From Rubellicoccus peritrichatus (GTDB lineage Bacteria; Verrucomicrobiota; Verrucomicrobiia; Opitutales; Cerasicoccaceae), in contig NZ_CP136920.1 of the NCBI RefSeq assembly GCF_033100135.1, positions 1,612,001 through 1,676,000 on the forward strand: DNA of 64,000 nucleotides, read 5' to 3'. Of this stretch, positions 59,414 to 60,687 are shown in pieces (within the stretch, counting starts at the first letter, position 1; each line of letters starts with the position of its first letter). The translations under genes were made by a program, and so were the position numbers. Below the pieces are notes generated by a model. It made no database searches and was not told the origin of the DNA. It was given only the letters and a program-made list of their open reading frames with translations.

Positions 59414-59429
59414 ACTCTATATATAGTGT
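59414..59429. promoter_or_regulatory. NrdR box 1
   Basis: ACTCTATATATAGTGT agrees with the NrdR consensus acaCwAtATaTwGtgt. It lies 32 bp from box 2, about three helical turns, the usual spacing of paired boxes. Confidence 0.85.
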
Positions 59430-59445: not shown

Positions 59446-59461
59446 GCACTATATATAGTGG
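59446..59461. promoter_or_regulatory. NrdR box 2
   Basis: GCACTATATATAGTGG, a near-perfect NrdR box, six bases before a TTGACA sequence. Binding of NrdR to both boxes would repress the RNR gene when dATP is high. Confidence 0.87.
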
Positions 59462-59595: not shown

Positions 59596-60687
59596 ATGGA
59601 AGTCACCGAAGTCACCATCGGAAACAAGCAATTCACCCTCGACAAAAGCAAGGCCGAGGAGGCGTTTCGCGCCAAACGAGTCATCAATGGCCGTGAGACC
59701 ATGTTTTTCAATATTTTGCCCCTTAAGTATCAGTGGGCATATGACCTTTACAAGACGATGAAAGCCAATCATTGGGAGCCGGAAGATATCCCAATGCAGA
59801 AAGACTGCGAGCAGTGGCGTGACAGCAGCGGGCAAATCACTGATGTCGACCGATGGATCATCAAAATGGCAATCGGCTACTTTTCTGCCGCCGAGGGTAT
59901 TGTCGGGGACAATGTCATGCATGTGGTGAGAGAAGTCGTGACTGCGCCCGAGCTGAAATTGACGCTTGGCCGCCACGCTCACGAAGAAAATATCCATGCT
60001 GACAGTCTCGTTTACATGATTTCTTCGCTGGGGATTAATCCGCACGAATGTGAGGCTATGTTCAGCGATGTCTCTACCATCGATAAAAAGACTGACTTCG
60101 TCGTCAGTAATTCACGAGCATTGCGCCGCGATATCGATTTGACGGTGACTGAGAACAAGCAGGCTCTTTGTAAAAACATCTTCCTTTTTGGTCAAGTTAT
60201 GGAGGGCACCCAGTTTTACGGGTTGTTTGGTATGGTTCTTAGCCTTTATCGCCAGACAAAATTTCCAGGCATCGGGCAGATGTTCCGCTACACGCTTCGC
60301 GATGAATCCAATCACATTGAGTTGTTCCGCAATTTGCTGATGGATCTCGTTGAGGAAAATCCGGATGTCTGGACTGATGAATTCCGCAATGAACTTGTGG
60401 CGACCATGAAGGAGGGCGTTGAGCTTGAAAAAGAATTCATTCGTGATTGCCTGCCGGTCAATGCACTTGGTCTTTCAGCTGATGAGTTTGAACAGTATAT
60501 TGACTACATTGCAGACCGCCGTCTTGAAGGCTGCGGACTTCCTCTCTTGTCACCAGGTGCTAAGAATCCGTTCCCTTGGCTTTCCGAGATGATGGACATC
60601 AAGAAGGAAGCGAATTTCTTTGAGCAGCGTGTGACTGAGTATCAAAAAGCCTCCGCACTTGATGCTGTTGACGATGATGATCTTTAG
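59596..60687 (+). CDS. nrdB: class I ribonucleotide reductase beta subunit, Tyr-less (class Ic-like)
   Basis: A 363-residue radical-generating subunit. Metal ligands can be placed: Glu100 (FSAAEGIVGDN), Glu131 and His134 (EENIHADSLVYMI), Glu203 (QVMEGTQFYG), Glu237 and His240 (RDESNHIEL). The position of the radical tyrosine, four residues after His134, is Leu138. The first ligand is Glu instead of the Asp of E. coli. Both traits match Chlamydia-type class Ic enzymes, which use a Mn/Fe cofactor (Phe at this position in C. trachomatis). The C-terminal tail TEYQKASALDAVDDDDL should bind the alpha subunit, whose gene is not in this window. The ATG at 59596 was chosen since upstream frame lies in the leader. 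Two NrdR boxes precede it. Confidence 0.93.
   Translation: MEVTEVTIGNKQFTLDKSKAEEAFRAKRVINGRETMFFNILPLKYQWAYDLYKTMKANHWEPEDIPMQKDCEQWRDSSGQITDVDRWIIKMAIGYFSAAEGIVGDNVMHVVREVVTAPELKLTLGRHAHEENIHADSLVYMISSLGINPHECEAMFSDVSTIDKKTDFVVSNSRALRRDIDLTVTENKQALCKNIFLFGQVMEGTQFYGLFGMVLSLYRQTKFPGIGQMFRYTLRDESNHIELFRNLLMDLVEENPDVWTDEFRNELVATMKEGVELEKEFIRDCLPVNALGLSADEFEQYIDYIADRRLEGCGLPLLSPGAKNPFPWLSEMMDIKKEANFFEQRVTEYQKASALDAVDDDDL

Follow-up and report, generated by a model that had tools for sequence, protein, structure and literature searches.

Class Ic R2 proteins and their relatives

R2 (beta) is the radical-generating subunit of class I ribonucleotide reductase (RNR), the enzyme that produces DNA precursors. 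In R2 proteins the first metal ligand is Asp in classes Ia and Ib and Glu in class Ic (R2c) and in the R2-like ligand-binding oxidases (R2lox), and an all-Glu ligand set separates the latter two from Ia/Ib (PMC4118035). R2lox shares both this ligand set and a Mn/Fe centre with R2c, and the ligand set alone does not fix metal identity (PMC4118035). Other residues distinguish the two. The position of Phe197 in Chlamydia trachomatis (Ct) NrdB is Ala in R2lox, Ct Tyr222 (an electron relay together with Trp51) is kept among R2c but not R2lox (PMC4118035), and the C-terminal tyrosine is missing in R2lox (PMC3824934). In enzymes with a tyrosyl radical, the radical is surrounded by a hydrophobic pocket of two Phe and one Ile (PMC3824934).

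Class Ic has been reconstructed for the chlamydial ancestor (PMC9816063), and Phe-type class Ic enzymes are known in haloarchaea (PMC3019208), so their occurrence outside chlamydiae or in free-living organisms is not new. Nor is Leu at the radical site, since replacement of Phe by Leu, Ile or Val in R2c is already documented in Högbom 2010, as cited in PMC3824934. No paper on a verrucomicrobial Leu-type R2c clade was found among the open-access papers searched. The protein described here belongs to such a clade, and the Leu-type NrdB is best regarded as part of a known enzyme class, in a branch of it that has received little study and is common to a whole group of Verrucomicrobiota.

The nrdB gene and its radical site

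The gene lies in a 64,000-nucleotide stretch of DNA (the window), and the features below are given in window positions.

59596..60687, forward strand: nrdB, Leu-type class Ic-like R2 (beta) subunit, 363 aa (Pfam PF00268, NCBIfam PRK07209, best PDB match C. trachomatis NrdB)
59893..59895, forward strand: Glu100 codon, first metal ligand, Asp in class Ia/Ib (translation; aligns with Ct E89)
59986..59997, forward strand: codons 131-134, ligands Glu131 and His134 (translation; Ct NrdB mapping)
60007..60009, forward strand: Leu138 codon, radical-tyrosine position, Ct F127 (translation; phmmer alignment; Ct mapping)
60202..60204, forward strand: Glu203 codon, ligand (translation; Ct NrdB mapping)
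60292..60294, forward strand: Thr233 codon, invariant in the Leu clade and Ile in Phe-type R2c, Ct I223 (clade alignment rows)
60304..60315, forward strand: codons 237-240, ligands Glu237 and His240 (translation; Ct NrdB mapping)
60640..60642, forward strand: Tyr349 codon, C-terminal radical-transfer tyrosine, Ct Y338 (Ct mapping; invariant in alignment A1)

The open reading frame runs from an ATG at 59596 to a stop codon ending at 60687, with 59596-60684 translating directly into 363 residues, and the start is backed by relatives whose matches begin at residue 1. Family membership was established directly, as both curated cut-offs for class I R2 proteins were exceeded: Ribonuc_red_sm (PF00268) at 220.5 bits versus 33.6 (3.7e-65), and PRK07209 (ribonucleotide reductase beta subunit) at 339.5 bits versus 309. 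The best PDB sequence match is C. trachomatis NrdB (phmmer, 4.7e-78).

Direct translation gives E/E/H/L/E/E/H at residues 100/131/134/138/203/237/240. This bears out the first-pass annotation, which had listed all six metal ligands (Glu100, Glu131, His134, Glu203, Glu237 and His240), Glu rather than Asp as the first of them (E100, opposite Ct E89), and Leu in place of the radical tyrosine at position 138 (opposite Ct F127). The check it had set beforehand, alignment with the C. trachomatis protein, was run and places EEAVHTHTFLY of the latter over EENIHADSLVY of NrdB with zero gaps, so that no Tyr can shift into the radical site. A shifted alignment with Y140 in the site is ruled out, as Y140 pairs with Ct Y129.

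Every R2c landmark residue checked is kept except at the radical site. In order from Ct to NrdB, the mapping is W51 to W60, E89 to E100, E120 to E131, H123 to H134, F127 to L138, Y129 to Y140, E193 to E203, F197 to F207, Y222 to Y232, D226 to D236, E227 to E237, H230 to H240 and Y338 to Y349. NrdB thus has the features of class Ic: no tyrosine at the radical site (Leu138 in a gapless alignment), Glu as first ligand (E100; PMC4118035), and W60, Y232 and Y349 as relay and transfer residues. With L138 and E100 it lacks the radical Tyr and Asp first ligand of class Ia/Ib. A narrow chlamydial definition with Phe at the site would leave it out, whereas the wider one allows Leu, Ile or Val (PMC3824934).

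R2lox has the same all-Glu ligands, a Mn/Fe centre and no radical tyrosine, and its profile gives NrdB a weak score (2e-13 to 5e-4; PMC4118035 for the shared centre). That NrdB is such an oxidase is nevertheless extremely improbable. Residue 207 is Phe rather than Ala, Tyr232 and Tyr349 are present although absent from or unconserved in R2lox (PMC4118035, PMC3824934), the RNR profile is clear, and NrdR control is predicted. The residue criteria of both papers all point to an R2c-like protein.

A tyrosyl radical on Y140 or Y232 might replace the usual one. Y140 and L138 are separated by a single residue, Y232 precedes E237 by five, and neither tyrosine varies much in the clade (present in 168 and 169, respectively, of 171 Leu-type rows). 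C. trachomatis NrdB, however, carries both tyrosines (Y129, Y222), as do most Tyr-type plasmid and phage references, so neither is a substitute for position 138; furthermore, PMC4118035 assigns Ct Y222 an electron-relay role. An alternative tyrosyl radical is accordingly considered improbable.

An AlphaFold2 model of NrdB built with 24 homologues is of medium confidence (mean pLDDT 70.8, pTM 0.74) and poor at residues 26-64 and 334-363. Its best fold matches are C. trachomatis NrdB structures, such as 4d8g with a Z of 35.3 and an rmsd of 1.8 across 278 residues, followed by 6y2n (Z 33.1) and then other class I enzymes (Z ≤31). The 6y2n subunit, the second-closest solved relative, likewise has a Tyr-less (Phe) site and all-Glu ligands; it differs in clustering with Asp/Tyr enzymes of other bacteria and not with the Leu clade. 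C. trachomatis NrdB (PDB 1syy, 4d8g, 4m1i) is thus the nearest solved relative by sequence and fold. It shares the six ligands including Glu first, the equivalents of W51, Phe197, Tyr222, Asp226 and Tyr338, and the absence of a radical tyrosine, and it differs in having Phe at the site and Ile at the 233 position and in belonging to a separate clade, whose Phe-type members are ~41% identical to NrdB. The Leu/Ile/Val R2c of Högbom 2010, compared here by way of its citation in PMC3824934, resemble NrdB in having Leu replace Phe/Tyr at the radical site.

Metal identity cannot be read from a shared fold, and a metal-based oxidant other than Mn/Fe, either a di-manganese (class Id-like) or a high-valent di-iron centre within a Leu-type pocket, deserves some weight. 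Ligand sets alone leave the metal unfixed (PMC4118035), and the Leu clade has its own near-site invariants and a separate branch. Against this, the class Id structures rank far below C. trachomatis NrdB (8dq3 Z 27.9 and 6cwp Z 27.8, versus 35.3), and the all-Glu ligands together with the full set of Ct R2c landmarks favour Mn/Fe. Such a centre is therefore rated unlikely.

By analogy with the chlamydial enzyme, use of Mn/Fe by NrdB is likely. The usual radical-carrying tyrosine is absent, and the metal centre is probably used instead. NrdB would be the R2 subunit of the organism's only aerobic RNR, with the usual position lacking a stable tyrosyl radical. Its dinuclear centre (E100, E131, H134 / E203, E237, H240), most likely with site 1 holding Mn and site 2 Fe as in C. 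trachomatis NrdB, would react with O2, and an extra electron delivered via Y232/W60 would yield a stable, high-valent Mn(IV)/Fe(III) state. The oxidising equivalent would then reach the Tyr-Tyr-Cys chain of NrdA by way of W60, D236 and Y349, while Leu138 would serve as an inert side chain occupying the space of the lost tyrosine. The residues named here were read directly; we infer the metal identity, oxidation state and radical route.

Genome context and predicted NrdR control

The genome context, also established directly, is that of an Opitutales-like member of the Verrucomicrobiota with a 5.8-Mb genome in one contig. A free-living host from the PVC group had been proposed, and this agrees with the ordinary size of the genome and with nearest named relatives that include cultured Cerasicoccus. 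nrdB is the only R2 gene, and there is one gene for an NrdA-type barrel, one for class III NrdD and one for NrdR. No class II RNR was seen in the genome, where the sole barrel-domain match is NrdA; a class II enzyme that would make NrdB dispensable in air is rejected on this basis. Since NrdD is present, the organism may be able to do without NrdB when oxygen is absent.

With its start at 1906139, nrdA lies ~234 kb away from nrdB and encodes a 1088-aa protein with at least one ATP cone. The motifs of this protein are SSCYLY (496), NLCTEI (710), AVCNLG (725), Tyr-Tyr (1030-1031) and, close to the C-terminus, CEAC, all of them established catalytic and transfer residues. The sole NrdA is complete, having the catalytic Cys, the Tyr-Tyr pair and the C-terminal Cys pair.

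Two predicted NrdR boxes, which are palindromes scored against the NrdR consensus, lie upstream of nrdB.

59414..59429, forward strand: NrdR box 1, ACTCTATATATAGTGT, 15/16 to the consensus, upstream of nrdB
59446..59461, forward strand: NrdR box 2, GCACTATATATAGTGG, 14/16 to the consensus, 32 bp downstream of box 1

These sequences were observed directly, and their core, CTATATATAGTG, is present at no other place in the 5.8-Mb genome. Upstream of nrdA (L226, 237-269 bases before the ATG) are two NrdR-box-like sites (14/16 and 13/16), 32 bp apart as at nrdB. Of 75 upstream regions from relatives, 37 have a box pair spaced 30-32 bp, with a spacing of 32 bp in 27 and of 31 bp in nine; chance would give 0.35 according to simple base shuffling, which is a lenient control. 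As predicted box pairs precede both genes, nrdA and nrdB look co-regulated despite the distance, and nrdB is very likely functional as an RNR gene.

This context bears on whether NrdB could be a dead or regulatory beta paralogue, copies of which adjoin normal ones in a few relatives. There is hardly any room for this reading: the genome has no R2 gene besides nrdB, and the ligands and transfer residues of NrdB are intact and kept across the clade. A pseudogene or second-copy beta is rejected on the same grounds.

Variant beta loci do occur among relatives. In L229:3218-5532 (G116) and L230:3393-5824 (G208, minus strand), a tandem nrdB-nrdB'-nrdA is found in which nrdB' keeps the six ligands and Leu, has Y140>H, Y232>N and an altered tail, and is 52-54% identical to NrdB; this arrangement suggests a beta/beta' heterodimeric class Ic enzyme. 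A beta pair also adjoins nrdA in L228:3455-5650 (G379), where the first copy has E100>Q, H134>R, E237>V and H240>R and has lost Tyr349, and the second is normal. Finally, L212 (G258:C97:72353-72964), within a frame of 474 aa, matches the R2 family weakly (3.2e-14), and a normal Phe-type R2 lies elsewhere in G258.

Distribution and phylogeny of the Leu-type clade

R2 is present in 125 of the 388 Verrucomicrobiota genomes searched. Three types (Glu/Leu, chlamydia-like Glu/Phe and Asp/Tyr) are scattered over the phylum, and roughly two-thirds of the genomes have no R2 match. Among the copies read, Glu + Leu accounts for 87 rows (85 loci, 84 genomes), with 13 of Glu + Phe, 28 of Asp + Tyr and one Gln + Leu, a degenerate paralogue. 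Glu + Leu is likewise found in all 80 relatives from genome_contigs. Given these relatives and the Leu-type copies in 84 of 388 genomes, Leu138 is neither chance nor a sequencing oddity. NrdB is a real and functional-looking Leu-type class Ic-like R2. A viral origin of the close copies is rejected: no relative was confirmed in viral_contigs, and plasmid and phage matches are <60% identical.

The first ligand and the radical site are paired. All rows mapped onto C. trachomatis NrdB comprise 171 Glu/Leu, 15 Glu/Phe, 28 Asp/Tyr and one Gln/Leu, counts that are not independent because they include related and partly duplicate genomes. Glu is the first ligand in 171/171 Leu-type rows and Asp in every Tyr-type row. 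The rule that Glu accompanies a Phe or Leu site and Asp a Tyr site has a single exception in 214 rows, the degenerate paralogue (Gln/Leu), and intact proteins never crossed. Added references obey the same pairing, with Glu/Phe in haloarchaea and Asp/Tyr in Acidithiobacillus, Acaryochloris, Teredinibacter, Paraburkholderia, Flagellatimonas and phages.

In a tree built with columns 100 and 138 left out, the Leu proteins were directly found to form a single clade (bootstrap/SH-aLRT 100/99), restricted to Verrucomicrobiota within the sample used. Sister to the rest of this clade is L191 (G047), a Leu-type R2 that is divergent, sits on a long branch and carries Y140>H. The C. trachomatis protein falls in another clade (97/95) together with the chlamydia-like Phe-type R2c found separately in other Verrucomicrobiota. 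A tree constrained to join the Leu and chlamydial clades is worse by 21.5 log units (AU p 0.03), and one constrained to put all Glu-type proteins into one clade is worse by 16.1 (AU p 0.09), in both cases with groups chosen after the first tree and with long branches. The grouping of the Leu clade with chlamydial Phe enzymes is thus weakly rejected. Tyrosine loss independent of chlamydial/Phe R2c is no more than possible, because the groups were named post hoc, the branches are long and the bootstrap is unsettled.

Residues close to the site in sequence also set the clade apart. Position 233 is Thr in 171/171 Leu-type rows, and it is Ile in 17/17 Phe-type and 31/36 Tyr-type rows. Thr233 aligns with Ct I223, four residues ahead of ligand E227. 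Ct I223 stands at what we take to be the position of E. coli I234. We infer that it corresponds to the pocket Ile described in PMC3824934. Further clade-specific invariants are Y95, A98, D136, Q200 and T205. T233 (for I), Q200, T205, A98 and D136 are unlike chlamydial R2c, and the metal preference of the Leu clade could therefore differ. It might even be that the clade lost its radical tyrosine independently and uses a different pocket (Leu138, Thr233, Thr205, Gln200) to stabilise a metal oxidant, possibly with another metal pair, as a distinct Tyr-less subclass and not class Ic proper; this is a minority reading to which little probability is given. The same residues qualify the suggestion in the first-pass annotation that Leu implies the chemistry of chlamydial class Ic: a class Ic-like R2 without a radical tyrosine stands, but as a member of its own clade, with clade-specific T233, Q200 and T205, NrdB is more than one substitution removed from the chlamydial enzyme.

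Taken by analogy with that enzyme, NrdB is quite probably the working R2 of the sole aerobic RNR, class Ic-like with a metal-centred oxidant, most likely Mn/Fe. The clade-specific pocket is moderately interesting and testable, and the pairing of a Glu or Asp first ligand with a Leu or Phe versus a Tyr site is a simple rule open to mutation test. The occurrence of Leu-, Phe- and Tyr-type enzymes within one phylum offers a natural set for asking how the metal and the radical site are determined. If the proposed reading is true, metal-based radical initiation would be the main aerobic route to DNA precursors in a broad branch of the Verrucomicrobiota, beyond chlamydiae and haloarchaea.
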